Shown here piece by piece: positions 7,919 through 43,034 of a stretch of 45,862 bases of DNA. The stretch's first letter is position 1; the number at the start of each line of letters is the position of its first letter. The notes below the pieces were generated by a model that saw nothing but the letters and a program-made list of their open reading frames with translations, was not told the DNA's origin and searched no databases. Made by a program: the position numbers and the translations under genes. The stretch is taken from positions 1 through 45,862 of the IMG/VR virus record IMGVR_UViG_3300031237_000010; one strand, 5' to 3'. The stretch comes from a virus.

Positions 7919-8152
7919 GTGATCTTCTACCAGCTCCGCCCCGATCGGGCCCAGCACCATCCCGGCTTCTTGGTCGGCCAGCGCTACCGCTTCCTCAAGC
8001 CCACCCACCCCACCGGCTACATCTTCCTAGAACTCGGTGGGAAACCTCGCTGCGTCTGGGCGGCTGACTTCTCCAAATGCAGAGGCGGGTCATGCGGTTT
8101 CCCAACCCGCGCCCTCGAGCACCCGGACCAGCCGATCCGCCGCTTGAAGTAA
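7919..8152 (+). CDS. Small hypothetical protein after the membrane-anchored gene
   Basis: 77 residues from a GTG four bases after the previous stop region. The first 50 residues (MIFYQLRPDRAQHHPGFLVG, YRFLKPTHPTGYIFLELGGK) look protein-like, with many aromatics; the last 20 overlap the convergent glycosyltransferase gene. There is no strong ribosome site, so the call is tentative. No domain recognised. Confidence 0.35.
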   Translation: MIFYQLRPDRAQHHPGFLVGQRYRFLKPTHPTGYIFLELGGKPRCVWAADFSKCRGGSCGFPTRALEHPDQPIRRLK

Positions 8153-9601
8153 GGGACCCTCCCAGTCGTCGGCCCGGGTTTGCCGGATCATCCGGAGCCG
8201 GGTGTACCATGGGGTCCGCTCCCCACTCAATCCCCAGCGCCAGTCCGGTGCGGCCGGGGTCAGCATCCAGGTCCACGGCCCCTCGATCAGACTCGCACAG
8301 GCGTGGACCGTCGCCGTATCCACCGCGATCAGGCCGTCCATTTGCGACAACACCGAGGCGGTTTCCGCATACCCTGTAATCAGCGGGGTGGCGTCGAACA
8401 CCCCAGGGTTCTCCTCGTCCAGGTCTCTGGCCCGGTCTCCGACCTGCACCGAGACCCAGTCCACCCGGTCCTTCAACCGCGGGTCCTTGAGCAGTACATC
8501 CCGCCACTGGGGCCAGAGGATCGACCGGTAGCGATCGTTTTTGTGGGCCTTCGACCCGGCCCAGGCTATGCCCACCCGGAGCCGTTTCTTCTCCGGGAGC
8601 TCGACATGGTGCCCCGCGATCGGCCGCAGCCACCCATCCGCATGGGTCACCTGGTGGAGCCCGAACATTCCCGCTTTCTGGGGAACGGTCATCATCGGGA
8701 GGTAGCGGTCGATGTGCTCCACCTCGTCCGGGATCGGGGAGTTGGACGCGATCACATAGTCCACCCCCTTGACCTGAGCGAGGTAGTCCACCAGCGACTC
8801 TCCGACTTCCAGGATGATGGCCTTCGCCTGACTCCGCTCGGCCACCTTCCCCAGAAACCGGGACACCATCAGCACGTCCCCGGCGCCCTGCTCGGTGTGC
8901 ACATACAACACCTTCCCTGGAATCGCCCCGCCGTTCCAGTGCCGGGCTCCGCCGAAGTTCCGCCGGTTCTCGGTCAAAAAGGACGCGGTATTCCAGCGAG
9001 CCGTGTAGTCAGACCATCCGCCGGCATAGTCGCCCAGCGCCAGCCGCGCGAAGCTCCGGGCATAGATCGCATCCGGATTCTTGGACCTGGTGGCCGCCGC
9101 GGACTGCATCCACCGACGCCCTTCCTCCATGTTGCCCAGGTTCATGTAGCAGCCGGCCAGCGAGGTCTTGGCTTCCAGCATATCAGGACAACTCGTGAGC
9201 GACTTCACGAAAAACTCCCGGGCCCGCTCCACCTCCCCCATACGATGCAGCAGGATCCCCAGGTTGTAGTGCGCTTCCGGGATCTCCCCGAGCTGCTGGA
9301 CGGCGTGCTCCATCAGGGCCAAGACTTTGCCTTCGGGATGGTTCTGTTGGGAGAGGGCGATGGCGGAGTAGTAGAGCGCCTTCTTATTCAGCCGATCGTA
9401 CAGCAGGACTTCCCGATACCGCTGCATCGCCTCCTGGTTCTTCCCCCGGATATGGAGGGCGATCGCTTCCTCCAACATTGCGTTGATCTCGAGCGGGGTG
9501 TAACGGGACGGGGGAACCGGGATCTCCGGCACGTCATCCAGAGAAACAGGGCCGGCATCGTAGGCAAGGCGGGGATTCCGGGAGAGATCAGGCAGGGTCA
9601 C
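8090..9601 (-). CDS. TPR-repeat glycosyltransferase (GT9/heptosyltransferase-like C-terminal domain)
   Basis: 503 residues. Residues about 40-200 form four to five tetratricopeptide repeats (for example PEAHYNLGILLHRMGEVERA and MLEAKTSLAGCYMNLGNMEE). Residues about 220-490 match the fold of family 9 or SPINDLY-like transferases: VLYVHTEQGAGDVLMVSRFL at the start, RVGIAWAGSKAHKNDRYRSI in the middle, GLIAVDTATVHACASL near the nucleotide-sugar site, and WRWGLSGERTPWY. It would transfer a sugar from a nucleotide sugar to a protein or glycan. It is the last gene of the tail operon, directly after the probable receptor-binding protein, so the target may be a tail protein or the host surface. GTG start. 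Confidence 0.75.
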   Translation of the reverse strand: MTLPDLSRNPRLAYDAGPVSLDDVPEIPVPPSRYTPLEINAMLEEAIALHIRGKNQEAMQRYREVLLYDRLNKKALYYSAIALSQQNHPEGKVLALMEHAVQQLGEIPEAHYNLGILLHRMGEVERAREFFVKSLTSCPDMLEAKTSLAGCYMNLGNMEEGRRWMQSAAATRSKNPDAIYARSFARLALGDYAGGWSDYTARWNTASFLTENRRNFGGARHWNGGAIPGKVLYVHTEQGAGDVLMVSRFLGKVAERSQAKAIILEVGESLVDYLAQVKGVDYVIASNSPIPDEVEHIDRYLPMMTVPQKAGMFGLHQVTHADGWLRPIAGHHVELPEKKRLRVGIAWAGSKAHKNDRYRSILWPQWRDVLLKDPRLKDRVDWVSVQVGDRARDLDEENPGVFDATPLITGYAETASVLSQMDGLIAVDTATVHACASLIEGPWTWMLTPAAPDWRWGLSGERTPWYTRLRMIRQTRADDWEGPLLQAADRLVRVLEGAGWETA

Positions 9602-9634
9602 GCCCGACAGCGTGCCTGATTGTACCCTGAGAGT

Positions 9635-10864
9635 CTACATCGCCTTATACACCGCCCGGAGTCGGGTCATCTCAGTGGCGATCTCGACTTGCGAGAGTTT
9701 GGTGGTCGAGTAATACGAAAAGAAACTCAAATACAGCTCCCCGAAGGAGACCGGAGCCCCGCCGCCGTTGCCGCTCGCCCCGAAGATCAGGGCGGTATAG
9801 GTGAAATCGGCTGGCGGCGCCGCTGTAAGAATGTGGGCGACCGCGGTATGGCCGACATATGCGATCAACACCCATTGCCCCGCTCGGGTGCACCACTGAA
9901 AGCAGTACACTCGGCGAACGTACTTGCCCGCCGTGCCGGTGTCGCCATCGTCGGTCGCCGCACAGCCGCCGGATCGGGCCGTCGCCCCGCCGACATTGTT
10001 GGCGCGGACCGCCATGTTATCGCCGTTGGTTGTCACGAGCCCGCCCGCGCTCCCACCCCCACCGAACGCCGAGGCTGACTGGAGTTCCCAGAGGACCCCG
10101 GCCGTTCCGGGATGCGAGGCGACCAGGAACACGATAAGGTCTGTATTGGCCGGCGAGGTCATCCCGGTGCGCCGCATGTACTCATCCACGCCATCGAAGT
10201 GCACCGCCGGGACGCCGTCCCCGTCATTCAACGGATCCAGGTGATATGAGGGACGCACGCCGGCACCGGGATCGGGCATGTTGCCGTTGCCGGTGTCGTC
10301 GGTCCACGCGGTAATGTCTGCGCCGTCGCTTGTGCCGACCAGGCTCTCCACCCGGAACATTCCCTTGGCGCCGGGCGGGGCCGCCGCGGCGGCTGCCGCG
10401 ATCGCTTGTACGCTGGCGAAGTCCCGCCAGGTCACCTCATAGTCATTGTCCGTCGCCTTGACCGCGAGGTCCCCTTCGTTTCCCCCTGGAGGCAGCAGGC
10501 CCCGGCGATCGAATGCCGCGTCCCGGATGTCCTTGAAGTGCGTCATCACTCCGCCAGCGCAAATGACGATCGCCATGGGGAGGTTGAACGCGAGGAGCGT
10601 GGACGCGGTGCTCACGGTACCCGCATAGTCGTGCTGCACCACGACGGTGGAGTTGTCGGGGCAGACGATCGTCCCGTTGGCGACGAGCGACGTGACGCCG
10701 GTCACCCGGTTGAAGACCGGGCCGCCGAAGTAGGCAAAAGTGCGGGTCGCCACGACGACCGCCTTGAGGTTCGGCCCCCAGCCCCCGGTCAGGAGCGCGT
10801 CCAACTCCTGGAGCGCGTACTCAGGATTCCCCCAGTCGAGGCCGTACCGCTTGGTCGCCCCCAT
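9635..10864 (-). CDS. Probable receptor-binding tail protein with LamG/ConA-like C-terminal domain
   Basis: 409 residues; ATG in a TAATG overlap with the preceding tail gene. A phage-tail-like N-terminal part (to about 140) is followed by an Ala-rich helical linker (AIAAAAAAAPPGAKGMF) and a C-terminal jelly-roll-like domain (about 170-405) with ITAWTDDTGNGN and VPAVHFDGVDEYMRRT, phrases typical of concanavalin A/LamG lectin folds. Such domains bind sugars, which fits a fibre or tip protein contacting the cell surface. The last structural gene before the glycosyltransferase is the usual place for host-recognition proteins. Confidence 0.65.
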   Translation of the reverse strand: MGATKRYGLDWGNPEYALQELDALLTGGWGPNLKAVVVATRTFAYFGGPVFNRVTGVTSLVANGTIVCPDNSTVVVQHDYAGTVSTASTLLAFNLPMAIVICAGGVMTHFKDIRDAAFDRRGLLPPGGNEGDLAVKATDNDYEVTWRDFASVQAIAAAAAAAPPGAKGMFRVESLVGTSDGADITAWTDDTGNGNMPDPGAGVRPSYHLDPLNDGDGVPAVHFDGVDEYMRRTGMTSPANTDLIVFLVASHPGTAGVLWELQSASAFGGGGSAGGLVTTNGDNMAVRANNVGGATARSGGCAATDDGDTGTAGKYVRRVYCFQWCTRAGQWVLIAYVGHTAVAHILTAAPPADFTYTALIFGASGNGGGAPVSFGELYLSFFSYYSTTKLSQVEIATEMTRLRAVYKAM

Positions 10865-12510
10865 TACGGGATGCTCCAGTCGGGTTCCGGATATGCCGGG
10901 TCGGCGTCGGTGTCGTCATCTACATCGGCAGGTGGCTCCACCCAGCCCGATTCCGGCGGGGTCGCATAGATCGCGCTCGACACGTTGAACACGTCCTGCA
11001 TCGCTTCCACTTCGATGGTCCCGTCATCCAGGGAGCCGTAGTTGATCCGGGTAATCCGGAGCACCAGGTCACTCACTCCGAAGGCCGTGGGGTCGGCGCT
11101 CACCACGTCCCCTTGCATCAGCGTGTAGCCTTCCCGATTCATCTTCCAGGAGCACCGGGCCAAGGGAACGCCTCGAGACCGCCGGAGCCGTTCCGCCTTG
11201 AGCGCCGCCACGTCCGGGTCGGTGATCAGCGGGGCATTGGCCGTGAGGGTCCGAATGCGGCCGGTGCCTTGCCAGTTGGCTCCGTCCTGGGCCGAGGCGA
11301 TGTCCGGCACGAATCCCCGCCGCTCGAACGTGTCCACGAACCGGTTATAGGTGAGCCGGATTTCATTGTAGGTATCTGCCCAAGTCGAAGGGCGGTAGAC
11401 GAAATCCCATGAGTTGCTGGGGTCAATCACTGGAAGATTCGCCACCACATAGTCATCCCGGATCAACTTGAGCCGGTAGAGTCCGGTCAGGGGATTGGTG
11501 GCGAGCGAAGCGTCGATGGTGTCCAGGATATCCGAGATCACCGACTTCGCCTCGATCGGGTTGTTGATGACCAGCGAAATGCCAAAGCCGGTCTTGAATC
11601 CGGCGACGATGGTTTCATTCTTGAGGGCGAGCGCCACGTCGATGAAGGATTGCAGGTCTATCCTTGCGGTAGACCGGCCCAGGCCATACACCGCGTTGGT
11701 TAGCAGGTCATAGAGCACTTCCGCCGGGTTCGCGTCATAACCTAGCGTGGCCTCGTTCTCCGTTTGCCCCAACGGAGACAGGGCGGTCTCCCACCAGGCA
11801 GTCCGGCGCAGCACGGCGCGAAGCGGATAGGGTTGCGCAGTATTGGCCCCGAGATAGAACGGCTCGGTCCCCCCGTCGCCACCTCCGGATGCGGCCCCAC
11901 CTTGGCGGATGTAACAGATGCGGGGCCAGCGGGAGACGAAGGAGGACCCGTAAGCTTCCGAGAGTGAGAGGTAGGTATCAGCCGCCTGGGCGTCAGTGCC
12001 CCAGTAGATCTTGAGCCCTCCCGCGACCCCTCCCCCTTGCTGATTGCCGCCGAACATCGAGCCCGACTGGTCGATCTTGGGAAAGGAGTCCCCGTGGATG
12101 TCCACGAAGTACGGAGCGCCGTTGTTGAGGATGCGACCGGCCAGGACCGGCGGCAAGAGACCATAGACCGGATGCCCCGGCTGGAAGGTCAAGTGATGAT
12201 TGCGCGCACTCTTTTCATCCCAATTGAGGTCGATCAGTTCATTGACCTTGCCGATGCAGAAGATGTGATGTGCGGCGCCGTAGAAGCGCCAGAACTGGTC
12301 TATCTTTCGCTTGAGGAAGTGGCCCGTCCATGCGGTGTTGGGCGCGAGTTCTGCCACCCCCCAGAACACCGGGATCACCCCGCCTGCCTCCGAGGTGGGT
12401 TGGGTATGATCAGGCGCGTCGCGCTTGGGCCTGGGGCGCAGCGCCGACGCCAGCAGGCTGGTCGCGATCGAGATAATGAGCCAGCCAAGCCATCCGATCT
12501 GTAGTGCCAT
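10864..12510 (-). CDS. Tail tip / tail hub protein (Phage-tail_3, gpJ-like)
   Basis: 548 residues. The N-terminus has a hydrophobic stretch (GWLGWLIISIATSLLASALR) and then VIPVFWGVAELAPNTAW, which resembles tip proteins that begin with a hydrophobic segment and a G-x-R/V-x-x-P phrase. The centre (RILNNGAPYFVDIHGDSFPK; NPAEVLYDLLTNAVYGLGRS) is characteristic of the hub domains shared by gpJ-like and GTA tip proteins. The acidic C-terminal tail (DVDDDTDADPAYPEPD) may be flexible. It would close the tail tube and carry the receptor-binding protein encoded next. Confidence 0.75.
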   Translation of the reverse strand: MALQIGWLGWLIISIATSLLASALRPRPKRDAPDHTQPTSEAGGVIPVFWGVAELAPNTAWTGHFLKRKIDQFWRFYGAAHHIFCIGKVNELIDLNWDEKSARNHHLTFQPGHPVYGLLPPVLAGRILNNGAPYFVDIHGDSFPKIDQSGSMFGGNQQGGGVAGGLKIYWGTDAQAADTYLSLSEAYGSSFVSRWPRICYIRQGGAASGGGDGGTEPFYLGANTAQPYPLRAVLRRTAWWETALSPLGQTENEATLGYDANPAEVLYDLLTNAVYGLGRSTARIDLQSFIDVALALKNETIVAGFKTGFGISLVINNPIEAKSVISDILDTIDASLATNPLTGLYRLKLIRDDYVVANLPVIDPSNSWDFVYRPSTWADTYNEIRLTYNRFVDTFERRGFVPDIASAQDGANWQGTGRIRTLTANAPLITDPDVAALKAERLRRSRGVPLARCSWKMNREGYTLMQGDVVSADPTAFGVSDLVLRITRINYGSLDDGTIEVEAMQDVFNVSSAIYATPPESGWVEPPADVDDDTDADPAYPEPDWSIP

Positions 12511-13326
12511 TCAGGCGCCCCGTTTCCAGGTGTTGCGGAGCGGGATCTTGGCGTATCCCTGGAACCGCGGAAGGTTACTGAACAGGGAATTGCAGACCGA
12601 CGCGGTCCGGTTACAGCCCCGGCGGAGGCTCACGGTCTGTCCGATGATGAGATCCGGCAACGGGGTTTGCAGGGTGAACACCCCCGCGGCTCCCTCGGAG
12701 ATGATGAAGCTCACATAGAGTGAAGTGAACAGCACCCCGCTGGCATAGTGGGACGGGGAGCTGCCCAAGTCCGCGGGACCGGTCACAGTGATGGTCCGCC
12801 CGCTGTCTGCTTTTACGGTAACCGTCGCATTGAATGTGTGGCTCGCCGCGACCACACCACAAAGCGAGTCATAGAGCATGTTCGGGCAGGTGCGGCTGAA
12901 GGTGAGCCGGCCGACCTGTCCGCCTAGTGCCGTCTCCTCCGTGGTGCAGAGCAGGGTTAGGGTGCTGTCCCGGAACGTGACGCCCGCGACTTCGCCCAGC
13001 CAGATCACCTTCGCGTCCCCCGCCGCTTCGTTCCGGTGATTGCGCCACAGCGTGACGCTGACCGGGAACGGCGACAGGCTCCCGATGAACTGTGCGGCTA
13101 GGTCAATCGTGCGAGGCAGGGTGATACTCAACTGCATGGAGCTGTCTTCCTCCGTCTGCTCAATCGGTCCCCGCTCGATCCCCGCCAGGGCGGTGTATAT
13201 GTTCCCGTTGAAGGTCTGGTCTGTTTCCGCCGACGTGTAGCGCCAATAGGTGCCATTCCGCTCGAATTGCAGGTATTCGATCGGGGCGCCGCTCGCCGCG
13301 CTGATTTCCCGGCTGTCGTAGCTCAT
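12511..13326 (-). CDS. Minor tail protein, DUF2163 / phage BR0599 family
   Basis: 271 residues. Start SREISAASGAPIEYLQFERN and the end RRGCNRTASVCNSLF ... LPRFQGYAKIPLRNTW are the signature of this family, which ends in C-x(6)-C-x(3)-F-x-N-x(3)-F-x-G-x(3)-I-P. Homologues in gene transfer agents and siphoviruses form part of the distal tail between tube and tip. It sits between two paralogous tail genes and the hub gene, as in such tails. Confidence 0.8.
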   Translation of the reverse strand: MSYDSREISAASGAPIEYLQFERNGTYWRYTSAETDQTFNGNIYTALAGIERGPIEQTEEDSSMQLSITLPRTIDLAAQFIGSLSPFPVSVTLWRNHRNEAAGDAKVIWLGEVAGVTFRDSTLTLLCTTEETALGGQVGRLTFSRTCPNMLYDSLCGVVAASHTFNATVTVKADSGRTITVTGPADLGSSPSHYASGVLFTSLYVSFIISEGAAGVFTLQTPLPDLIIGQTVSLRRGCNRTASVCNSLFSNLPRFQGYAKIPLRNTWKRGA

Positions 13327-14138
13327 GCGACCGTCATGGCAAGACCAGTGTCCGTTTCTGAGGGCAGGCCCAGGGTGACGCGTTTCTGTGCTGTGATCGA
13401 GAGGCCCGTGTCGGTTGCCGACGCCAACCCGATCGCCAGCGTCTTCCGGCCCGTGAGTGGCAAAGCGGTGTCGGTCTCAATGGCCGGCCCAATCACCAGC
13501 GGGTCGCCCGCAACCGCCGCATCCCACGGCACGTCGATCAGGGGGAGCTCGAGGATGGCGATATCCCAACTCTCCCGATGCAGCACCAGGTCGTCACTCT
13601 CCGCCCGGCAGAGCAGGAGGAAGCAGACGCGATCTCCCACCGCCAGCGTGACCCCGATGGCGCTATCGAGGGTAATTGTCTCGGCTGTTTCGCTCACGAC
13701 CGCAGCCGCGGTCACTTCACGGTACACGACTGTCCCTGGGGATCCGGTGGGGAAGAGGGCCACATGCTGCCGTCCTTTGCCCGCCCCGAAGAACCACTTG
13801 GTGAATCCGATATTGGTAATGGACAGCGTGGTTGATCCAGAGGACGCACCCGCTGTCAGGAACACGTCGTCCACCCATTCCGGCACCCAGAAGGCGTTGA
13901 GGCGCCCCTGGGCTGTGTCCCTGATAAAGGCCAGCGCTTCCATGATCTCGGCCCGGGTGGTGAACACGTACCGCACCCGGCGGAGTGTGCGGGGGCTGAT
14001 CTCATAGGGGGTATCGTCCCGCACCTTCCCCGCCTTGCCGTCCCAGCGGTTCTTCCGGCGGAACAGGGTCGTCACGGGCTCTTGCCAGTCCGGTTCCCAG
14101 GTGATGACGGGGTGGGCCAGGTAGGTCGGAAAAGTCAT
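13323..14138 (-). CDS. Distal tail protein with C-terminal ETDTGL repeats
   Basis: 271 residues from the ATG at 14138 (ATGA overlap). The main part (about 5-210) is related to the C-terminal half of the upstream gene: both have an N-terminal W-E/Q pair, an arginine-rich strand, and the phrase WVPEW followed by a sandwich-like domain. The last 55 residues are three repeats of about 18 residues (ETDTALPLTGRKTLAIG; ATDTGLSITAQKRVTLG; ETDTGLAMTVA), the same module that makes up most of the protein at 27186-27806. It probably forms part of the tail tip collar. Confidence 0.65.
   Translation of the reverse strand: MTFPTYLAHPVITWEPDWQEPVTTLFRRKNRWDGKAGKVRDDTPYEISPRTLRRVRYVFTTRAEIMEALAFIRDTAQGRLNAFWVPEWVDDVFLTAGASSGSTTLSITNIGFTKWFFGAGKGRQHVALFPTGSPGTVVYREVTAAAVVSETAETITLDSAIGVTLAVGDRVCFLLLCRAESDDLVLHRESWDIAILELPLIDVPWDAAVAGDPLVIGPAIETDTALPLTGRKTLAIGLASATDTGLSITAQKRVTLGLPSETDTGLAMTVA
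13326..13500 (-). repeat. Three ETDTGL-type protein repeats in the distal tail protein
   Basis: Roughly 54-bp DNA units encode repeats of the form I/L-G-x-A-x-E-T-D-T-G-L-x-x-T-x-x-K-x. They are similar in protein and partly in DNA to the array at 27280-27790, so they could recombine with it. Confidence 0.65.
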
Positions 14139-15376
14139 GCGTCCACCAGAAACTCGAGCTCCGTTTCCGCCATGTGCCGCGCGGGGCGCACGACATCCAC
14201 GCTCTCCGGCAACCGCGCCGCGGCGAGCGGGAGGATGTAGGTGACGCCTTTGGTAAACGCGTGGATGGTGGCCCAGTAGAACTGGATGGAGGTGGCGGAC
14301 ACGATCTCCACTACATGTATCTCCCAGGTATCCGGCGCCGTCCAAAGCAGCACGTACTTCGGCGGGCCGGTCAGATCGTCAACCGCATTGTATTCCCGGT
14401 CCGCCGAGTCCAGCACGTTGACCACCGTGTCCCCGATCACCACGTTGACCGAGACCACCGCCGCGTTCCACCACTCCGGCACCCACACGGTCATAGGGTT
14501 GGAGCCGAACAGGAGGGCCATCAGGTGTTCGGTCTCGTCCCGGGTGAAGGTGGCGAGGGGCTTCCGGAACACCCGGCGCGGGAGAGCGGGATTCCGGACC
14601 GCGATGCGCTGCTCGCTCCCGTCATCCGCGGTCAGCACATCGGTCAGGTAGGCGTACTGCTCCTGCATCGGCCAGTTGAACCGGAAGGGGAAGGGAACCA
14701 TGTCGGCCACCTGATCCCGGACGGTGAGGTCGATCAGGGCGGTGCCGGCGGCGTCGTTCCCGGACGTGAGGATGAGGCCGATATGGTCATTCCCCGCGAC
14801 CATGAGCGCGGAGGGCACCCGGGCCCGGACCAGGAGGGTCGCATGCAGGGCCCCGTCCGATTCCGCCGCATAGAGGGAGACCACGTCTTCCACGACGGTA
14901 GCAAAGATCCTTCGGGGGCCGCTCTGGAGCGGGAAACTGAAGTCCCGGCCTGTGGCGAGGGTTGTCACGACGCCCGCTGCATCCACCCACTGGACGCCTC
15001 CCCGTACCCCGCCCGTGCCCGTGCGGGCCAGTCCGATCCGGAGATAGGAGATGTTGGTGTACGACCCGATGGCGGTGTTGGGAACGAAGAAACAGAAGTA
15101 GATCGTATCCGAGACGTTGTCCACGCCCAGCTTGAACAGGTTGGCCCAGATCTCGAGCCGGGTGTGATCGAAGGCTGCGTTGATCCGCGCCACCTGACCA
15201 TCGAACGCGGAGGAACAGGTGAGCATGTGGTAGTCGCGGATGCGATAGTCGGCCGCGGCACCAGTGTACTCCCAGGCAGTGGCGCCGCTCGCCAGGGGTC
15301 GCGTGGGGACGTGACTCGACAGGGGCACATCAGTGACCCCGTCCCCGATGAACCGGTCATAGAACAGGTCGGCCAT
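14135..15376 (-). CDS. Distal tail protein with lectin-like N-terminal half
   Basis: 413 residues. Residues about 1-215 look like a beta-sandwich (DRFIGDGVTDVPLSSHVPTR; YLRIGLARTGTGGVRGGVQW; NDHIGLILTSGND), as in carbohydrate-binding ConA-like domains. Residues about 225-400 (YLTDVLTADDGSEQRIAVRN, then FGSNPMTVWVPEWWNAAV) are paralogous to the next gene downstream. It is encoded right after the tape measure, where distal tail proteins (Dit-like or its partner) are found. It may form the ring that joins tube and tip. Confidence 0.6.
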   Translation of the reverse strand: MADLFYDRFIGDGVTDVPLSSHVPTRPLASGATAWEYTGAAADYRIRDYHMLTCSSAFDGQVARINAAFDHTRLEIWANLFKLGVDNVSDTIYFCFFVPNTAIGSYTNISYLRIGLARTGTGGVRGGVQWVDAAGVVTTLATGRDFSFPLQSGPRRIFATVVEDVVSLYAAESDGALHATLLVRARVPSALMVAGNDHIGLILTSGNDAAGTALIDLTVRDQVADMVPFPFRFNWPMQEQYAYLTDVLTADDGSEQRIAVRNPALPRRVFRKPLATFTRDETEHLMALLFGSNPMTVWVPEWWNAAVVSVNVVIGDTVVNVLDSADREYNAVDDLTGPPKYVLLWTAPDTWEIHVVEIVSATSIQFYWATIHAFTKGVTYILPLAAARLPESVDVVRPARHMAETELEFLVDA

Positions 15377-20627: not shown

Positions 20628-21806
20628 TTACGAGATGTAGCGGACGGCCATGTCGGGGTTGAGCACCTTGACTCCCCAGAGGGCATCGACCCGCACCTGG
20701 ACACTGGCGTCGTAGCCCTCGTACCACATGGTGATCCGGAGAGCCAGTCCGGTCTTCGGGTCGCTGATGCTCGCCATGGCGGCTCCCATGGCCTTGCCCG
20801 TCTGGGGCAGCGGCGCCATCGCCAGCGCGGCGAAGTTCCGGTGGAAGGCCAGATTGTCGAACTTGGTCGCGTCACCGACCTTGAAGCCCACCGTGGTGCC
20901 CGACGCGGCGGTGTGGCTGGCCGAGGGCGAGACCGCAGCCGTGATGGTGTTCGAGGTGGCGGTAGCCGCGGCGGTGACCACGAAGTTCCGGGCCCCGGAC
21001 CGCGCGGCACCGGTGAGGCCGGTGGTAGCGGTCGAACCCACCTGCACGATGTCCCCGACCTTGAGCGCCCCGGTCATGGTGGAGGCAGCGATCACGATGG
21101 ACGCCTGCCCGACAGTCACCGCGACATTCACGGTGGCGGGGCCATTGCCCACGGTCGGCGCGGTGCCGGCCTGCTGGGCCGCGACGTTCTGGTTGGCGAA
21201 GATCTCGAAGCCCAGCTTCTCGCCCAGCGTCCCCTTCTGCTGGGTCCCGGAGCTGCCAGCCTCGTTGGCGCGGAGGAAGATGTCCTGGCCCAGGAAGTAC
21301 TGCTCCCGCTCCCCGTTGAGCTCGAGGTGGAGATCGGTGAGGGGCACCTGGTTGTCGAACAGCCGGCGCCGGAGCGCGGGCAGGTCCGCCACACCAGCGG
21401 TCGCCGTGACCGGGTAGTACCAGGGAATCGACTGCGCCAGCGCGTTGAGCGACTGGTCGATCTTGTCCGCCACAGCCACCGCGGCCGGCCGGATGTGCTC
21501 GTCGATGATCTGCTGCTGGGTGAAGGACAGTTCCTTGTCGGTCAGCCGGAACTGGACCCCGTGCCACTGGTCCAGCGTGATGGCCACCGAATCGGTGACG
21601 AGGTCCGAGGTGTTGGCCGAGGAAATCGGCATAGTCTGCGCCGTGAAGTACGACGGCCGGCGCAGGTTGATGACCTCGCCCCGTTCCTGGGGGTCCTTGT
21701 CGTAGCCGCGGAAGACCCGCCCGGCCAGGCCGAGCTCCTTCTCGAGCTGCTGAAGCGCGAGCGCCGCGAAGATGGTCGGGTTGTAGTTGCCGAGCGTGTT
21801 GGCCAT
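20628..21806 (-). CDS. Major capsid (coat) protein, P22 coat / HK97-fold type
   Basis: 392 residues. The start NTLGNYNPTIFAALALQQLE followed by GLAGRVFRGYDKDPQERGEV, the strand YFTAQTMPISSANTSDLVTD and the phrase VQFRLTDKELSFTQQQIIDE are typical of the P22 gene 5 coat family. An inserted Thr/Ala-rich beta domain (about 225-310: IVQVGSTATTGLTGAA, NTITAAVSPSASHTA) matches the extra Ig-like domain of some members. No head protease gene is found, in keeping with P22-type assembly that uses a separate scaffold. The leader contains a hairpin near the ribosome site. Confidence 0.85.
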   Translation of the reverse strand: MANTLGNYNPTIFAALALQQLEKELGLAGRVFRGYDKDPQERGEVINLRRPSYFTAQTMPISSANTSDLVTDSVAITLDQWHGVQFRLTDKELSFTQQQIIDEHIRPAAVAVADKIDQSLNALAQSIPWYYPVTATAGVADLPALRRRLFDNQVPLTDLHLELNGEREQYFLGQDIFLRANEAGSSGTQQKGTLGEKLGFEIFANQNVAAQQAGTAPTVGNGPATVNVAVTVGQASIVIAASTMTGALKVGDIVQVGSTATTGLTGAARSGARNFVVTAAATATSNTITAAVSPSASHTAASGTTVGFKVGDATKFDNLAFHRNFAALAMAPLPQTGKAMGAAMASISDPKTGLALRITMWYEGYDASVQVRVDALWGVKVLNPDMAVRYIS

Positions 21807-26805: not shown

Positions 26806-27189
26806 TTAGGCGAGCTGCGCCTGGTTGACTACTCGATACGTGATCTCTTTCGCCCCCTGGCGGGTTCCGCTGGCCCAGGTCCACCGCACCAGCGCCACAT
26901 GGAACTCCTGGGCCGCGCTCTGGCTGCTGAGCACGTTGTCCAGGTTCCCCAGCACCAGCGTCAGCGTCCCATCGGTTGCCACCGTGCCCCCGTTTGCGTC
27001 CAGTATTGTCTGGGCGTTTCGGCTGTTGATGTAGGTGCCGGGCACCCCCGCCTGGTATAGCGTTAGCGTCACCGTACTTAATTGCACCTTCGGAACCAAG
27101 ACGTCGTCTTGGTCGGTCAGAGGCAGGGTCAGGGTGCAGGCCGTCTGTTCACAGACGGGATCGGTGATCCGTTGCCGGAAGTCGCTCAT
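26806..27189 (-). CDS. Putative virion protein, beta-sandwich (baseplate-upper-like)
   Basis: 127 residues. Strand-rich sequence (TCTLTLPLTDQDDVLVP-like start with STVTLTLYQAGVPGTYINSR, later QEFHVALVRWTWASGTRQGA) resembles the small N-terminal domains found in BppU-like and other phage structural proteins: polar strands, an N-x-R-N/D turn, and W-T-W-A-S-G-T near the end. Part of a group of minor structural genes (26.3-29.0 kb). Confidence 0.6.
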   Translation of the reverse strand: MSDFRQRITDPVCEQTACTLTLPLTDQDDVLVPKVQLSTVTLTLYQAGVPGTYINSRNAQTILDANGGTVATDGTLTLVLGNLDNVLSSQSAAQEFHVALVRWTWASGTRQGAKEITYRVVNQAQLA

Positions 27190-28151: not shown

Positions 28152-28159
28152 GGGTCACC

Positions 28160-31221: not shown

Positions 31222-31988
31222 GGCTTTCCCTTCCGATAGATCGGGGTCGTCACCGACAAATTGATCCGGGGTAGGGCATCCCAGAGCTTTAGCGGCATAC
31301 CAGCACCGATCGAGAGGGTTCTGTTGGTCCCGTCGAAGTCGAGGTTGACTGTCCCCATTGGACAGGGTATGCCGACCAGCGGCACCCGGCACCCGCGGGC
31401 CGCCTTCTGGAGTTGGACAATCAGACCGTCCGCCTCGTCGAGCCGGCTGCTATCCCGGGCGACACGGTTGGTCAGCGTGACCGAGTCGCGCCGGAAGCTG
31501 GCGATCGTCTGCTGCGAGGAACTGTCAGCTTTCTTGAGGTCGGCGGTCGCCCTGAACAGCGAATCATTAGCCCGCCGCACTAGCGCGCATTCGTTGCCGC
31601 GTTCGGTGCAGGCCGCCACCAGTACGTCGTTCGTGTCTTTCAGAGTCCGGGCGTTCCGGAGGCTTGCAAACATCGAGTCCGCCCGGCGCTTAGTCTCGTT
31701 CGCAGTTACCATCGTCCGCGATGCCCCTGAGACTAGCCGTGCCGCGCTCTCGGTCAGACTGAGGGTGACCGCTTCTGACCGCACCCGCCTCTCATGTTCG
31801 TCCTTCAGGTCGTTGCGCATCCGGGCATTCTCAGCCTTGTCGGTTGTCCGGTGCTCGCGATAAACCGCCAGGCTGTCGCGCAAGTCCTGGTCGTCCACGC
31901 CGCCGCTCATCCGGCCCAGCACGAAGCCCAGGCCCAGCACGCCGGCGATCGCGGCGAGCCTCCAGACCAGGTCGAGGGGGGATTTCAT
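31218..31988 (-). CDS. Membrane-anchored coiled-coil protein (possible spanin-like)
   Basis: 256 residues from the ATG at 31988 (TGATG overlap). One membrane helix at about 8-27 (VWRLAAIAGVLGLGFVLGRM) is followed by about 150 residues of charged coiled coil (REHRTTDKAENARMRNDLKD ... RRADSMFASLRNARTL) and a C-terminal beta part with cysteines (GCRVPLVGIPCPMGTVNLDF). Layout and neighbourhood of the endolysin recall inner-membrane spanins (Rz), but it is longer than usual and no separate lipoprotein partner is seen. An alternative is a virion or surface protein partnered with the exported beta-helix protein next door. Confidence 0.5.
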   Translation of the reverse strand: MKSPLDLVWRLAAIAGVLGLGFVLGRMSGGVDDQDLRDSLAVYREHRTTDKAENARMRNDLKDEHERRVRSEAVTLSLTESAARLVSGASRTMVTANETKRRADSMFASLRNARTLKDTNDVLVAACTERGNECALVRRANDSLFRATADLKKADSSSQQTIASFRRDSVTLTNRVARDSSRLDEADGLIVQLQKAARGCRVPLVGIPCPMGTVNLDFDGTNRTLSIGAGMPLKLWDALPRINLSVTTPIYRKGKP

Positions 31989-32667: not shown

Positions 32668-32671
32668 GGAT

Positions 32672-35420: not shown

Positions 35421-36647
35421 CTAGAAAGCGACGGGAGCGGAGGGGGTGGAGAAGGTGGGAGCCTGCTTGATCATCGGACCCAGCCCATACCGAATGGCAT
35501 CCCAGGTGTGGTTGTGGGCATCGATCAGCTTGGGCAGTACGTCGCCGGTTCTCGGATCCGTCTTGTAGCGGTAGTGCCTCGACTCCTGGATGGTCAGCTT
35601 ACACCGGCTGTGAATGACGATCCGGTCATAACTTCGCAAGTGCTCGATGCCATCCTTGACTGACCCATCCCACTTCGGGGCGCCTTCGATCCGGAACCCT
35701 CTGCGGGTCATTTCGTTGATTGTTTCCGGCCGCGCGGAGTCGGCGCGGATGACGTGCTCTCGGGCGCCAGGCACGCGGTCAAACCGCCGGGCCAGCTCAT
35801 CCATATCGAGCTGCACACCGGATTCCTCGTACTCGATGTAGAGCCGGCGATCGGCCAACCACATCCGGATCAGGACCGAGGGATCCTTCGCAAATCCCCA
35901 GTCCGCGCCGTAATAGGGCCCATTCCAGTGGGACTGTGGGGCGAAGTCATCGACCGTGCACCGGTCCGCCAGGACCGCCTCATTAGAGCGGGTCCATGGC
36001 TCCCCCTCCCACACGTTCGCATAGGCTTCGGGGTCCTTGGTCAGGAGGTCCGCGGCCTCCTCCACCAGTTCCTTGGGCACCCAGGGATTGTCCCGGAAGG
36101 TCACCAGCTTGACGATAGATCGACCCGGGGGCTTCTCGATGAACTCCCGATAGGTGGGATCTGAGGCAAGTGCGGGGTTGAAGCTGACCCAGATTTCGGA
36201 CTTCGGTTTCCGGATCGTGGGTTTGAGCACCCGCCAGCTTGTCTCACTGACGGCCTCCGCCTCCTCCACCCAGCAGATATCAATGCCTTCGGTGGATTTG
36301 ATTTCAGCCACGTCGCGGCGCATCCCCTTGAACAGAAACTCGGTGCCGTTCTTGCCGAAGATCCCGGTCTGCTGGACTGAGTAGAACCCAGCGAGCCCCA
36401 AGGTGGTGATCTGGTCTGTCAGGAGGCGGTGCACCGAGTCTTTGATGGAGGACTGGTATTCGCGGGCACAGAGGATACGGAGTTTGGCTTGAACCCCGTG
36501 GAGGAGCAATGCGCGAGCGAACTGCCAGGACTTCGCGGAACCACGACCGCCGTAGGCGACGCGGTATCGAAGGTCACCGAGCGGGGGGTCGAGCAGAAAC
36601 CCGAAGGCTTCCGGGATCTGGACTTCGGGTTCAGCTACCTCCGGCAT
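35421..36647 (-). CDS. Terminase large subunit (PBSX/SPP1-type)
   Basis: 408 residues. ATPase: Walker A GGRGSAKS at 33-40, Walker B ICWVEEAE at 124-131 with the catalytic Glu, coupling motif VSFNPA at 154-159. Nuclease: YYGADWGFAKDP with Asp249, VIRADSARPET with Asp303, and IDAHNHTWDAIRYG near 376-390 for the third acidic group. It cuts concatemeric DNA and drives it into the prohead through the portal. This subgroup includes headful-packaging phages, which fits a circularly permuted map. The start lies 17 bases inside the small-subunit gene. Confidence 0.9.
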   Translation of the reverse strand: MPEVAEPEVQIPEAFGFLLDPPLGDLRYRVAYGGRGSAKSWQFARALLLHGVQAKLRILCAREYQSSIKDSVHRLLTDQITTLGLAGFYSVQQTGIFGKNGTEFLFKGMRRDVAEIKSTEGIDICWVEEAEAVSETSWRVLKPTIRKPKSEIWVSFNPALASDPTYREFIEKPPGRSIVKLVTFRDNPWVPKELVEEAADLLTKDPEAYANVWEGEPWTRSNEAVLADRCTVDDFAPQSHWNGPYYGADWGFAKDPSVLIRMWLADRRLYIEYEESGVQLDMDELARRFDRVPGAREHVIRADSARPETINEMTRRGFRIEGAPKWDGSVKDGIEHLRSYDRIVIHSRCKLTIQESRHYRYKTDPRTGDVLPKLIDAHNHTWDAIRYGLGPMIKQAPTFSTPSAPVAF

Positions 36648-36978
36648 CCGGCGTAACCAGCCGGACCGTGATGTTGGCCGGCGTGAGGTTCGATCCGTCA
36701 GCGTTGCTCATCGGCTGCACCGCCTTGCCATAGCCCCGCTCTGATACCGCTCGCCACATCGCCGCAAAGGCCGGGTGCTTCGGGTCGGCCAGCACGGCCT
36801 TCACCGCCTTCTCACAGGAGGGTTTAGAGATCATCGCCTGGCACCACTCCCGGTGCTTGTCAGGCGGGCGGCCGGCGTTCGGGGCGCCCTTCTTCGGCCC
36901 CCTCCCGCGGCGAGGGTCATCAGCGCCGGTGAAACCACCAGGCTGACGTGACTTTTGGCCTGACATTTTCTCAGACAT
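36631..36978 (-). CDS. Probable terminase small subunit
   Basis: 115 residues. A basic Gly/Pro-rich start (PGGFTGADDPRRGRGPKKGA, then NAGRPPDKHREW) is followed by a helical core with DPKHPAFAAMWRAVSERGYG. This arrangement recurs in phage proteins encoded directly before the large terminase. It would recognise the packaging site and recruit the large subunit. The identification depends on position and composition; a classical helix-turn-helix is not obvious. Confidence 0.6.
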   Translation of the reverse strand: MSEKMSGQKSRQPGGFTGADDPRRGRGPKKGAPNAGRPPDKHREWCQAMISKPSCEKAVKAVLADPKHPAFAAMWRAVSERGYGKAVQPMSNADGSNLTPANITVRLVTPDAGGS

Positions 36979-36984
36979 CCGTAA

Positions 36985-37788
36985 TCATAACTCCAAGACG
37001 GGTGGGAAGTTGAGCGCCTTGATCCCCCGCTCATTGGGCAGGGCCAGCACGTTCTCAGCGATCACCAGCGTTTCCTTGTTGCCCCAGAGGTCTTCAGGTT
37101 TCCCCTTGAAGTTCTTGGGGTTGAACAACGGGGTCCGGTGCCAGTGGAGCGAGTAGTTCCGGGCCCGGAACCAGTCGAAGACGGCGCCCCGCTTGAGGGC
37201 GCGGTCTGCCTCGAAGTACACGATTGGACGGCACTTGGCTATGGTCTGCTCCGCCCCCTGCAAGACGTCGAGCTCCATCCCTTCGACATCGATCGTCAGC
37301 AGGCCCATGGCGATGTCCGGGACGTTGTCCAGCTTGTAGACCGGGACCAGGTCTCCGGGCACATCCTGCACCGCCTCGATCTCGAAGGCGCCGAAGTTGT
37401 TGGGCATGTCCGGCCGGAGCATGGGGATGGTGACCAGCCCCGGCTTGTTGCCCAAAGCCGCCCAGTAGGTCCGGACGTTGAGCAGGCCGTTCAGGACGAC
37501 GTTGGCGGCGAGGAGCTGGGACATCCAGCGCTGGGGCTCGAAGGCCACCACCTCCCAGGCATGGCGGGCGAGCGGGACGACCAAGCTTCCCATGTTGGCG
37601 CCGGCCACCACGACCCGGGTCTCGTTGGTGATCATAGAAAGCAGCACGTCGAGCTCGGCTTCCGAGTATTCCCCGTACTCCTGCAGGGCCCGGCCGACAT
37701 AGGCATCGGTGGGCGGGACCAGGAAGCGGCCGTAGCGGCACCCTTCAACGAGGGTGAAGGGATTGGGGTCGGTGCCGTTAGCGGTCAT
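36985..37788 (-). CDS. FkbM-family methyltransferase
   Basis: 267 residues from the ATG at 37788 (ATGA overlap). SAM-binding motif I RVVVAGANMGSLVVPLARHA, then VVAFEPQRWMSQLLAANVVL, and the FkbM hallmark LLTIDVEGMELDVLQGAEQT with Asp and Glu near the active site, followed by CRPIVYFEAD. FkbM enzymes methylate hydroxyl groups of sugars and related compounds. With the sugar kinase, TylF-type enzyme and TPR glycosyltransferase it suggests modification of a glycan. Located just before the terminase genes. Confidence 0.8.
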   Translation of the reverse strand: MTANGTDPNPFTLVEGCRYGRFLVPPTDAYVGRALQEYGEYSEAELDVLLSMITNETRVVVAGANMGSLVVPLARHAWEVVAFEPQRWMSQLLAANVVLNGLLNVRTYWAALGNKPGLVTIPMLRPDMPNNFGAFEIEAVQDVPGDLVPVYKLDNVPDIAMGLLTIDVEGMELDVLQGAEQTIAKCRPIVYFEADRALKRGAVFDWFRARNYSLHWHRTPLFNPKNFKGKPEDLWGNKETLVIAENVLALPNERGIKALNFPPVLEL

Positions 37789-38069
37789 ATAGACCCGCCC
37801 TGCCACGGCTCCAGCGGGTCCGGATCGTCCTTCTCACCGATGACATCCCGGATCGCAGCGTCCTCCCCGATTAGTCGGTCTGCGATCCGCTCTGCGACAT
37901 CTCCCCACCTTTCGGTCAGGCCCGGCCTCTCTTTGGCACAGTTCAAGGCGGCGCGGATAGCGTTGATGTGAACGAGTCGCGGCTTTACGTCCCGCTCAAT
38001 CTCCGCAAGTCGTTCCTCTGCCCGCTCATACAACTCCGCCACGGTGAGTTCGCGGGTGGGCTTCGTCAT
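37785..38069 (-). CDS. Small helical hypothetical protein
   Basis: 94 residues, highly charged and helical (ELTVAELYERAEERLAEIER; LTERWGDVAERIADRLIGED). Overlaps both neighbours by ATGA. Not recognised; it may be a coiled-coil adapter. Confidence 0.5.
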   Translation of the reverse strand: MTKPTRELTVAELYERAEERLAEIERDVKPRLVHINAIRAALNCAKERPGLTERWGDVAERIADRLIGEDAAIRDVIGEKDDPDPLEPWQGGSI

Positions 38070-38341
38070 GGTAGCCCCTCCACGGTGGAGCCCGGGGCCG
38101 CGTGGAGATAGAACCTCCGGGTTCCAGGTTCACCGTTGCTTTCCGTAGCAATGCAACGCACCTCACGCCTCCCTTCGTCGTCCACCGCGAAGGTCTCCCA
38201 GAACGCGGGGTAGTCTGGCTCACCAGCAACCTGAACCGCGTAGGTTCCGGAACCTGTGACTATCGCATCGAAGGATTCCGGGCTGATGTGGATGCCAGAC
38301 GGAAGGATGGGGTGGCTCTTGTTAGACGGTAGGGCGTTCAT
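38066..38341 (-). CDS. Small beta-rich hypothetical protein
   Basis: 91 residues with strands PSGIHISPESFDAIVTGSGT and YAVQVAGEPDYPAFWETFAV and a C-terminal RRFYLHAAPGSTVEG. Coupled by ATGA to both sides. No family recognised. Confidence 0.5.
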   Translation of the reverse strand: MNALPSNKSHPILPSGIHISPESFDAIVTGSGTYAVQVAGEPDYPAFWETFAVDDEGRREVRCIATESNGEPGTRRFYLHAAPGSTVEGLP

Positions 38342-38799
38342 GCGGTCCTCGCCGGGAGTGGGTGTCTGCGGTCAATGTCAGGCTGGTGCCGTTCCTGTCT
38401 CCGATCGGGTGGGTCGAATACCTCCCCACACCGGGGGCAGGAAATCGCGTAAGTCGTTAAGTGTTCACACCGTGGGCACCTTCTCCGCCGGAACAGGATG
38501 AACGTCACCCCGCCCACTTCAGTGCTCTGTTCCGGAGGCAACGGGTCGATGAACTCCCGGGCTGCGGCAAACCAGTGAGCCACGGCAAGCGGGGTGATGT
38601 GCGGCCCGTCCGGCCTCCGGAGCCGGGTGTGCCAGCCCCCGCGGTAGATCCGGACCCCCTGATTGCGGATCGCATTCTCGACCGCTCGCCTCCCGTAACC
38701 GGAGGCGAAGGCGATTTGCAGAGCGGACCAGCCGTACTCAGCGTACAGGGTCGCGGCGATGAAGGCTTGCCGGGGGGTGAGGACGGTGCGGCCGATCAT
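38338..38799 (-). CDS. Helix-turn-helix plus zinc-ribbon protein
   Basis: 153 residues. Residues about 5-50 (LTPRQAFIAATLYAEYGWSA, LQIAFASGYGRRAVENAIRN) form a helix-turn-helix. Residues about 107-130 are a zinc ribbon CPRCEHLTTYAISCPRCGEV. The combination suggests a DNA-binding regulator, perhaps of late or lysogenic genes. Coupled by ATGA to the sugar kinase gene upstream. Confidence 0.6.
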   Translation of the reverse strand: MIGRTVLTPRQAFIAATLYAEYGWSALQIAFASGYGRRAVENAIRNQGVRIYRGGWHTRLRRPDGPHITPLAVAHWFAAAREFIDPLPPEQSTEVGGVTFILFRRRRCPRCEHLTTYAISCPRCGEVFDPPDRRQERHQPDIDRRHPLPARTA

Positions 38800-39761
38800 C
38801 GGGTGGCTTGGAGCCGGTCGGTCAGGTCCGGATCGGTGAACAGCGCGTCCTCTTTGGCGAGACAGAGCGTTTCCTGCTGGCCCGATGCTGTCAGCGTCGT
38901 AGCGTGGTTGACCGCCGTCTGCACCGCCTGGAACTCAGTCGCACAGGAGAGCAGGGAGTGAGTCAGGCCGGCCGTGAACACGTCCCCGGCCCCGCAGACC
39001 GTGGGGTGCGCGGAGAGGAGGACGGTGGGGTAGGCGGCGCCGGCGTTGCCCCGGTGATCGCAGTACTGGGCCCCTTCCGCGCCGTTGGTGACCACCACCA
39101 TGTGGACCTTGTACTCGAGCCGGTCCATCCAGGCCCGGGGGTCGGGGGAGATGACCGAGCGGGCTTCCCCGTAGTTGGCCTTGAGGACCACGTTCTTGCG
39201 CCAGCAGTCCCGCCAGCCGAGGAAGGCGCGGTGCAGGTCCGGCTTCACATCGAGGATCACCAGCACATCGTCCGGCATGGTGGTCAGGAGGGCCGGGACG
39301 ATTTCGCCGGGATGCAGGGAGCCCTTGCCGTAGTCCACGAACACGAAGGCATCGAAGACCGAGGGGAGTCCGTCCAGCAGCTTCAGGGGTGGAATCACCC
39401 GGGGCTGGCAGTCATCGTCTTTTCGGTAGAGCAGGCTGCCGTCGAGCCGAACCCGCTCTTTACGGGTGATTGGGGTGCCAAGGGTGAAGTCCCGGAACCC
39501 GCGATAGTCCACCCCGACCCCAGCGAGCATTTCCGCTAACCGCTGGTTGTCTGTAGGGCCCCTGGTGGTGACATCGAAGAACGTCACCTCGTTCCCCAGG
39601 GCGGCGAGGTTCGCCGCGACATTGAGCGCCCCACCCGGCTGCACCTTCGACCCCTCGTACTGCACCACCAGGGTGTCCGGGTCCTCCGGGTTCGGCCGCA
39701 CGCTCCGGAGGTCGGTCCACACATCCAACATCGGGTCACCCAGTACCGCGATGCGCTTCAT
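38796..39761 (-). CDS. PfkB-family sugar kinase (HldE/RfaE-like)
   Basis: 321 residues, GGGAGG before the ATG. Start RIAVLGDPMLDVW (sugar-binding Asp), QPGGALNVAANLAALGNEVT as the first PfkB signature, a lid region, ILDVKPDLHRAFLGW and KANYGEARSV, and the second signature VCGAGDVFTAGLTHSLL with the catalytic Asp. The pattern is closest to D-glycero-beta-D-manno-heptose-7-phosphate kinase (HldE first domain), but substrate is not certain. It would phosphorylate a sugar at the start of a nucleotide-sugar route. Phages rarely carry it; it may feed the heptosyltransferase-like enzyme at 8090. Confidence 0.8.
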   Translation of the reverse strand: MKRIAVLGDPMLDVWTDLRSVRPNPEDPDTLVVQYEGSKVQPGGALNVAANLAALGNEVTFFDVTTRGPTDNQRLAEMLAGVGVDYRGFRDFTLGTPITRKERVRLDGSLLYRKDDDCQPRVIPPLKLLDGLPSVFDAFVFVDYGKGSLHPGEIVPALLTTMPDDVLVILDVKPDLHRAFLGWRDCWRKNVVLKANYGEARSVISPDPRAWMDRLEYKVHMVVVTNGAEGAQYCDHRGNAGAAYPTVLLSAHPTVCGAGDVFTAGLTHSLLSCATEFQAVQTAVNHATTLTASGQQETLCLAKEDALFTDPDLTDRLQATR

Positions 39762-41161: not shown

Positions 41162-42202
41162 TCACCGGGGCCTCAGTGGGCCGTTTCGCCTGCACCAGCC
41201 CAATACGGCGTTCATCTTGGCAATGGACCCAGGTGGTCCGTATTCCCTACCGCCCCTTCGCAACATTTCCTCAATTACCGCCTGCGTTATCACCGTACAA
41301 AGCCCTAAACCGGGTTTGGGAATCGTCGGTACTTTGTGCGCCCACATAGATGCCCAACGGTAGATCTCCCGCGTTGGCACCTTGCGCCCGAGCAGGGGTG
41401 GAACGCAGTACCCCAGATCGCGCAGTTGCATTCTTTCTTGGGAGGACTGCGCTTCAAAGAAGTTCGCCGTCGCCATGGCTAAAAAGCACTCAACCGCCGT
41501 CGGCTGAATGAGGCGCTGTAGCGTCCATAGCATGGATACGCGATCACTCTTATAAATCCCCGACGCCAAGTGATCACAGAAAGCCGCACACCTATCTATG
41601 CACTCGCCAATCCTATGGCCATCTTTTCTCGTCAGCGCCTCTCGCCCGAAAGACGGACAGCCGGGAATGGGTGGGAGTCCATCGGGTATCTCTATCGGCA
41701 GCGGGTCGGTCTCGTATGATGCAGGATCGGCTATTGCTTTTGGGTCGCGTCCGCGCTGCATGTTCAAACCCACCATTACCTGCCAGCGGGACTTCGGCCA
41801 ATTTCCCGGGCCGAACAATGCCCCAATCTCCGACTGAATAGATGTAGCGATGCCGCAGAAATCCAGATTAAGAAAGCACTGTTTCGCGCCCCAGAAGCCA
41901 TCGGCCTCTAGCCGTTTGGCTGACTCCGATACGAGCAACCCGATGGCGTTTATTTTCTTGTAAGATCGTTTGTGAACCGCGACCACGGCGGGCGACTTGT
42001 CTAGTATCCACAACCGTTCAGGCGTTACCCCATTGTCGAGGGCAAGCCGAATCTCCTGATCGGTAGGACCCGGCAAGATCAGCACGTTGGCGCAGCCAAC
42101 GTCACCTATGATGTTGCGGTGGAAGGCCGACCAAATGAGTTCCCGATACGTTGCCTTCGCCGCAGCCTTGTAGCCAGAACGGGGTTGAATCGAGGACTTC
42201 AT
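41162..42202 (-). CDS. Phage protein of a methyltransferase-like family, function unknown
   Basis: 346 residues. The start SSIQPRSGYKAAAKATYREL then IWSAFHRNIIG and VLILPGPTDQEIRLALDNGV with LWILDKSPAVVAVHKRSYKK is typical of a phage family with a Rossmann-like core: a P-G-P-x-x-x-E loop at the usual cofactor site and an acidic Asp after the second strand. LNLDFCGI follows. A DNA or RNA methyltransferase is possible but not shown. Base use is visibly less GC-rich than in neighbouring genes, suggesting recent acquisition. Confidence 0.6.
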   Translation of the reverse strand: MKSSIQPRSGYKAAAKATYRELIWSAFHRNIIGDVGCANVLILPGPTDQEIRLALDNGVTPERLWILDKSPAVVAVHKRSYKKINAIGLLVSESAKRLEADGFWGAKQCFLNLDFCGIATSIQSEIGALFGPGNWPKSRWQVMVGLNMQRGRDPKAIADPASYETDPLPIEIPDGLPPIPGCPSFGREALTRKDGHRIGECIDRCAAFCDHLASGIYKSDRVSMLWTLQRLIQPTAVECFLAMATANFFEAQSSQERMQLRDLGYCVPPLLGRKVPTREIYRWASMWAHKVPTIPKPGLGLCTVITQAVIEEMLRRGGREYGPPGSIAKMNAVLGWCRRNGPLRPR

Positions 42203-42477
42203 TCGATGGCCGCCAGTCGGGCCAACACTTCATGAATGGCCTTGCACCGGGAGCAAACCTTTTCGTGGTCAACCCACCACTGATCTACCTCGTTCACTCG
42301 TTCAAGCCTGGTCCCCCTACATCCACACTTCGGCAGCAGGAAAGGCGCGACTAGTTTCAGCACATCGGCCGCAGTCAGACACCGGTGTCCGTGCCCGAAG
42401 GGAAAAGTGGTCCCGCACGTGCTGCAAATAATCTCCGTCGCCCCCATATCCACCCTCACTATCACAGGTTCGTTCAT
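42199..42477 (-). CDS. Small protein with several Cys/His metal sites
   Basis: 92 residues with CSTCGTTFPFGHGHRC, KCGCRG and HEKVCSRCKAIHEV, enough ligands for two zinc ions. Coupled by ATGA to both neighbours. Function unknown; one of a series of small Cys-rich proteins in this region. Confidence 0.6.
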   Translation of the reverse strand: MNEPVIVRVDMGATEIICSTCGTTFPFGHGHRCLTAADVLKLVAPFLLPKCGCRGTRLERVNEVDQWWVDHEKVCSRCKAIHEVLARLAAIE

Positions 42478-43034
42478 TTTCCCCCCTTGACGATCAGCCG
42501 CTTCCCGTTCGGCAATACCGGTCCCTCCCCGAACGCTTCCACCACCGCTTGTCTCACCCCCGGGCAGCCTTCCCAGGGGTAGTCATCGAACAGGATCATC
42601 CCCCCAGCCACCATCAGCGGCGGCATCAGATCGCAGATCGCCTTCGTCGGTGGGTAGACATCCACGTCGGCATGCACGAACGCCACCGGTCCCATCTCCA
42701 CCAGCGTCTCCGGGAAGGTGCCGACGCAGATCACCGCGTTCGGCATCAGCCCCCGAATCCGATCGAGCTCCCCCGCGTTCTCCGCATACCGACCCTGGGG
42801 ATGGACGGTCAGGTCGTCCCTTTCCGGGTCCACCGCGGTATGTCCCGCGAAGGTGTCATAGAGGTACAGTTTCCGGCCCTGTTTCTCCGCCATCTGGTAG
42901 AGCCAGTAGGCGGAACCCCCTTTGTAGACCCCGAGTTCCACGAAGTTCCCCGGAGGGGTAGCGCCGGCCAGCGCCACCAGCCAGGCAAGATCCGCCCCGT
43001 CGATCAGGGACTCCGGGGCCTGTGGATCGCTCAC
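42474..43034 (-). CDS. TylF/MycF-like O-methyltransferase
   Basis: 186 residues from the GTG at 43034 (GTGA overlap). GNFVELGVYKGGSAYWLYQM is motif I, then KLYLYDTFAGHTAVDPERDD, FVHADVDVYPPTKAICDLMP and MILFDDYPWEGCPGVRQAVV, the Mg-binding D-x-D and DDY of macrocin-type sugar O-methyltransferases. It would methylate a sugar hydroxyl. The frame stays open upstream to 43385, but that part looks like the shadow of two coupled small genes. Confidence 0.75.
   Translation of the reverse strand: MSDPQAPESLIDGADLAWLVALAGATPPGNFVELGVYKGGSAYWLYQMAEKQGRKLYLYDTFAGHTAVDPERDDLTVHPQGRYAENAGELDRIRGLMPNAVICVGTFPETLVEMGPVAFVHADVDVYPPTKAICDLMPPLMVAGGMILFDDYPWEGCPGVRQAVVEAFGEGPVLPNGKRLIVKGGK

Follow-up and report, generated by a model that had tools for sequence, protein, structure and literature searches.

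Four genes assigned to sugar chemistry lie on the minus strand of a virus record from IMG/VR, referred to here as the window, which comprises 45,862 bases at 64.8% G+C. They encode a TPR-glycosyltransferase (TPR-GT), a PfkB-fold sugar kinase, an FkbM-family methyltransferase, and a TylF-type methyltransferase, and a preliminary description had treated them as a spread-out glycan modification set. All four open reading frames (ORFs) are present where that description placed them. Its observation is partly confirmed: it is sound gene by gene, a single spread-out pathway is unproven, and the tail-linked TPR-GT is the best-supported part. The genes on which the argument turns are as follows.

8090-9601, minus strand: TPR-GT of 503 residues, with TPR repeats at about residues 36-204 and a GT9-like GT-B domain at about residues 212-503; candidate protein O-glycosyltransferase
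9635-10864, minus strand: fibre-like protein, the proposed substrate; last tail gene before the TPR-GT, after the tail hub genes
10864-13326, minus strand: tail genes for a Phage-tail_3 protein and a baseplate-hub-type protein (PF09931/PF09356), which anchor the tail module
36985-37806, minus strand: FkbM-family methyltransferase (PF05050, TIGR01444, phrog_8156), directly before the terminase genes
38796-39761, minus strand: PfkB-fold sugar kinase, HldE-kinase-like (PF00294; TIGR02198 over residues 2-288)
42474-43034, minus strand: TylF/Methyltransf_24-type methyltransferase of 186 residues with a GTG start at 43034 (PF13578, PF05711)

Evidence for the architecture of the TPR-GT came from family profiles, bacterial relatives, and a structure model. 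The N-terminal part scores over the cut-offs of Pfam TPR families, and the glycosyltransferase (GT) half alone matches no Pfam model, PF01075 (Glyco_transf_9) included. The claim that all four proteins carry their family motifs is upheld by Pfam and NCBIfam matches and retained motifs, except that the GT9-like half has no Pfam match of its own. Its GT9-like assignment was made via bacterial TPR-GT relatives (L092-L100; Rhodospirillales, Geobacter, Acidobacteriota, and others), which are 27-33% identical to the phage protein over the aligned length and 29-35% identical in the GT half. PF01075 is matched by 9 of the 11 alignment members, in contrast to the phage GT half by itself. All residues invariant in the bacterial relatives are kept in the phage, including E237, G239, G241, D242, D428, H433, and P449-W456 (PAAPDWRW). 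An AlphaFold2 (AF2) model (pLDDT 83.5, pTM 0.82) has a TPR plus GT-B fold, for which the closest solved folds are SPINDLY, OGT, and XcOGT, and a viral match is the TPR protein of phage S-SRM01. The fold match to SPINDLY and OGT is driven largely by the TPR part, and sequence similarity to these two proteins is significant in that part only. When a profile of the GT half was compared with the PDB, OGT was not recovered; the lone match was WaaF (1psw), at a non-significant E of 0.6. The phage protein therefore shares a TPR plus GT-B fold with OGT and SPINDLY, the GT41 protein O-glycosyltransferases that are its top solved-structure matches, whereas its catalytic-half motifs look GT9-like. As modelled, the fold class is TPR plus GT-B, GT9-like by the motifs of the catalytic half, and GT41 membership is not supported.

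The TPR-GT gene ends the tail module, and only 33 bp separate it from the fibre-like gene. Viral scans with GT and tail queries gave a sole match, a close relative (L002) that was found through the TPR-GT itself and extends over the tail module alone. The two phages agree in gene order and, nearly, in the gap between the fibre-like gene and the TPR-GT gene. The two hub-type proteins are 78-83% identical; the fibre-like protein is 61% identical over its first 137 residues and 28% identical over the remainder. The TPR-GT is 83% identical overall, with 88% identity in the GT half and 67% in TPR residues 108-204. Diverged TPR repeats together with a diverged fibre tip would be as expected if the TPR face tracks a changing partner.

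These features suggest a parallel with FlmG of Caulobacter crescentus, whose TPR domain binds flagellin and which requires both of its domains for glycosylation (PMC7591256). Like FlmG, the phage protein combines an N-terminal TPR array with a C-terminal GT-B domain, and its target, as proposed, would be a surface-exposed filament protein. The likeness is one of architecture, and the phage gene differs in adjoining a fibre-like gene. Because of this architecture and gene neighbourhood, and by analogy with FlmG, we propose that the TPR-GT, guided by its TPR repeats, O-glycosylates the tail fibre of the phage that encodes it, a reading that we consider evenly poised between right and wrong. The TPR-GT would be made in the cytoplasm late in infection, just after the fibre-like protein. 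Its TPR repeats would bind the fibre-like protein, and its GT-B domain would use a host nucleotide sugar as donor to glycosylate Ser/Thr residues of that protein. Such decoration could make the fibre more stable, change its receptor binding, or protect it. As guesses, O-methylation of the fibre glycan or of a different glycan could be the work of the FkbM and TylF-type enzymes, with the kinase perhaps supplying a sugar phosphate to host nucleotide-sugar synthesis. Enzymatic activity, substrate, sugar, and any links among the four genes are what we infer here.

Few systems so far have demonstrated phage virion glycosylation. In mycobacteriophages, the glycosyltransferases are reportedly encoded by the phages themselves. 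Mycobacteriophage glycans have been placed on capsid and tail tube subunits (Freeman et al. 2023, cited in PMC12619734), so that virion proteins are modified as proposed for the window, but the targets differ from a fibre. If the proposal is true, a TPR-type GT beside a fibre gene would be a marker, readable from the genome, of tail fibres that carry glycans, and this would bear on host recognition and on the way defences see phage particles. The fibre-like gene and the TPR-GT would also make a simple two-gene test system.

Additional evidence for a link with tail genes came from other phages. Reference phages were searched with the phage GT and a bacterial GT as queries, yielding five further phages. 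The gene immediately ahead of the TPR-GT in both BUCT-ZZ01 and S-SRM01 encodes RCC1 repeats and lies near an annotated tail fibre. In AG-345-E08 (MH319737.1), RCC1-repeat genes are followed by two short genes and then the TPR-GT, and in RHph_X2_30 the TPR-GT adjoins tail-tip genes. Judging from gene position, the RCC1-repeat proteins would be fibre adhesins. The analysis directly supports the family assignments and their retained motifs, the fold and location of the TPR-GT, its conservation along with the tail module, and its comparable placement in other phages. A broader version of the proposal would hold that unrelated tailed phages (the temperate phage of the window, cyanophages, a marine single-cell-derived phage, and a Casjensviridae phage) each recruited FlmG-like, bacterial-type, TPR-guided GTs for O-glycosylation of the fibres with which they bind receptors, that the TPR face and the fibre evolve together, and that in the window the sugar is tailored by the kinase and the two methyltransferases; we regard this as doubtful.

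Several observations weigh against fibre glycosylation. In the fifth phage, MW202512.1, the TPR-GT is placed between the capsid gene and another virion gene, a layout in which its partner may be some structural protein other than a fibre. Because phage genomes consist in large part of structural genes, adjacency in a few phages is weak statistically. Whole-chain TM-scores of the TPR-GT model against OGT and SPINDLY are low, mostly 0.26-0.40, perhaps reflecting domain orientation. The product of 9635-10864 is a candidate fibre by its position and divergence; it has no Pfam or PHROG match, and its AF2 model is uninformative (pLDDT 31.8). Faster change in the TPR repeats could also have other possible causes. 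On a separate point of annotation, an "fkbm" label on a 176-residue protein beside the MW202512.1 TPR-GT was rejected after it gave no match to FkbM models.

The TylF-type protein matches PF13578 at 9.3e-12 and PF05711 (TylF) at 3.5e-9, passing the latter's cut-off (36.7 vs 23 bits). The acidic residues of its DVDVY and FDDY motifs (the D and DD positions), which we take to be metal-site residues, line up with the solved O-methyltransferases 5i10 and 4cdz. The start proposed earlier, at 43034, was borne out over the longest-ORF start at 43385, because the GC-frame profile switches frame near 43040 and shows another frame in use upstream. Directly upstream is a Cys-containing ORF of 80 residues (43031-43273, minus strand), the likely coding frame there. 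Between the TylF-type gene and the kinase lies a gene for a 346-residue protein (41162-42202, minus strand), lower in G+C (56.6%), with no family match and with stretches that look, by eye, like a Rossmann methyltransferase. The FkbM protein passes both curated cut-offs, matching PF05050 at 1.8e-11 and TIGR01444 with 76.6 bits (cut-off 37.7), and carries the motifs GANMG, FEP, and IDVEGMEL. An FkbM gene adjoins the terminase in two otherwise different phages, at 35421-37806 in the window and at 37248-39439 in MW202512.1 (L109); the two FkbM proteins are approximately 27% identical.

The kinase belongs to the PfkB family, with a PF00294 match at 4.6e-11 (43.0 bits vs a gathering score of 25.8) and a GAGD motif. 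Its best NCBIfam model is the HldE kinase domain, TIGR02198, at 3.9e-20, its alignment with 4e84, a solved heptose-7-phosphate kinase, has an E of 3.2e-8, and it contains the motifs GGALNVAANLAALG, VDYGKGSL, and CGAGD. While the HldE/HldA kinase domain is thus its nearest family, the kinase cannot be called a heptose kinase, because it scores 72.2 bits against an equivalog cut-off of 345; in addition, neither a fused nor a separate adenylyltransferase was found in the record. No relatives emerged from viral scans in which the queries were the full-length kinase, part of the kinase, and the TylF-type protein, and tblastn of the kinase and FkbM proteins against the reference phages returned nothing at 1e-5.

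Both methyltransferases and the kinase sit between the integrase and the terminase, 27 kb from the TPR-GT, which closes the tail module. Rather than forming one operon, the four genes occupy two separate places, at odds with the idea of a shared set in the late half: three precede the terminase, and the TPR-GT stands alone in the tail module. The preliminary description had named missing co-occurrence in related phages as its own refutation. A search of 48 contigs with a related terminase for PF05050, PF00294, PF13578, and the TPR-GT protein found none that carries any of the four; these contigs are remote, many are fragments, and they share little besides the terminase, so the test is weak, as is the indication it gives against a conserved set. 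L002 was a 49th record and stands outside this group of contigs. The kinase gene and both methyltransferase genes have a little short of an even chance of being unrelated cargo, with separate roles in host metabolism, defence, or small-molecule methylation, and of being beside a tail-linked TPR-GT by accident. The two distant locations and the terminase relatives agree with this, as does FkbM occurring in other phages without the rest. Such cargo would leave the conservation of the tail-linked TPR-GT in L002 unexplained, and is compatible with that enzyme glycosylating the tail fibre.

A joint route of the TPR-GT with the kinase and methyltransferases is possible, if unlikely. Such a route would begin with the kinase making the phosphate of heptose or of another sugar; the host would complete the nucleotide sugar, the TPR-GT would transfer the sugar to a protein of the virion, and methylation by the two methyltransferases would cap it. 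AG-345-E08 has a compact island that shows a heptose-type route to be possible in phages: next to its TPR-GT and RCC1 fibre-like genes are glycosyltransferase-like genes, 2-oxoglutarate (2OG) oxygenases, a dehydratase, an HAD-phosphatase-like protein, and a heptose-type adenylyltransferase (TIGR02199) and kinase (TIGR02198, 134 bits). The window resembles it in having a TPR-GT and a heptose-type kinase with fibre-like genes, but AG-345-E08 gives no FkbM or Methyltransf_24 match. S-SRM01 has a TPR-GT, FkbM, and a Methyltransf_24 domain together, and the window's kinase keeps its heptose-kinase-like motifs. The heptose route suggested earlier is nevertheless disfavoured by the 27 kb separation, the absence of the set from the terminase relatives, and the low kinase score, and also by the lack of any nucleotidyltransferase (PF01467) or phosphoheptose-isomerase-type SIS (PF13580) match in this possibly incomplete record, which leaves a kinase without the isomerase and adenylyltransferase families of the ADP-heptose pathway. 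The combination was also said to be unusual for a phage of this size, which holds only in part: MW202512.1, a phage of 44.4 kb, pairs a TPR-GT with an FkbM gene but gives no kinase or Methyltransf_24 match.

The earlier description had named tail proteins, host surface glycans, and DNA bases as targets, of which tail proteins are the best supported. Known methyltransferases of the FkbM and TylF types include enzymes whose substrates are glycans or glycosides. Together with a probably temperate lifestyle, and with lipopolysaccharide heptosyltransferases among GT9 relatives (the weak WaaF match included), this would fit a TPR-GT that acts, alone or along with the methyltransferases, on a glycan of the host surface and thereby makes infected or lysogenic cells resistant to further phages. 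That reading is rather improbable: the TPR-GT is at the end of the tail module and not close to the integrase, its TPR array points to a protein as partner, and no flippase or lipid-linked glycosyltransferase was seen among the proteins scanned, with some small ORFs left unscanned. Phage glycosyltransferases can have DNA as their target (cited in PMC12619734), and the window encodes a cytosine-5 DNA methyltransferase; even so, action on phage DNA bases is very improbable, given that a thymidylate-synthase-type base modifier was looked for in the record and not found, that the closest folds are protein glycosyltransferases, and that the TPR-GT lies in the tail module.

The minus strand carries essentially all plausible genes of the window, and the genes therefore read from the integrase at the right towards terminase, capsid, and tail, with replication-related genes and the cytosine-5 DNA methyltransferase at the left. 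The record may be incomplete because it has no simple terminal repeat. Its landmarks are as follows.

43722-44849, minus strand: tyrosine integrase (PF00589)
36631-36978, minus strand: probable terminase small subunit, by position only
35421-36647, minus strand: terminase large subunit (PF04466/PF17288)
20628-21806: P22-type coat protein, the capsid landmark
2444-3082: cytosine-5 DNA methyltransferase, left end

The integrase implies that the phage is probably temperate. A genome scan with the tail protein as query gave no match and hence no prophage or host; Gemmatimonadota would be a guess, prompted by the style of a single ORF in L002. Promoter and terminator scans of the window gave results at chance level. 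Adjoining the integrase gene, at 43664-43692, is a sequence like the 3' end of a tRNA, with a T-arm, GCGGGTTCGATCCCCGC, followed by CCCCAGCA; ARAGORN found no whole tRNA there, and the sequence is a possible attP core. Far from the tail-tip genes, an ORF of 804 residues (28978-31392, minus strand) combines a proline-rich linker with a right-handed beta-helix region (PF13229) and is a candidate tailspike or depolymerase. Two further minus-strand genes, at 13323-14345 and 27186-27806, encode proteins with repeats of the type IGxAxETDxGLxxT, and a 56-residue stretch of the 27186-27806 protein has a 54% match in the L002 tail region.

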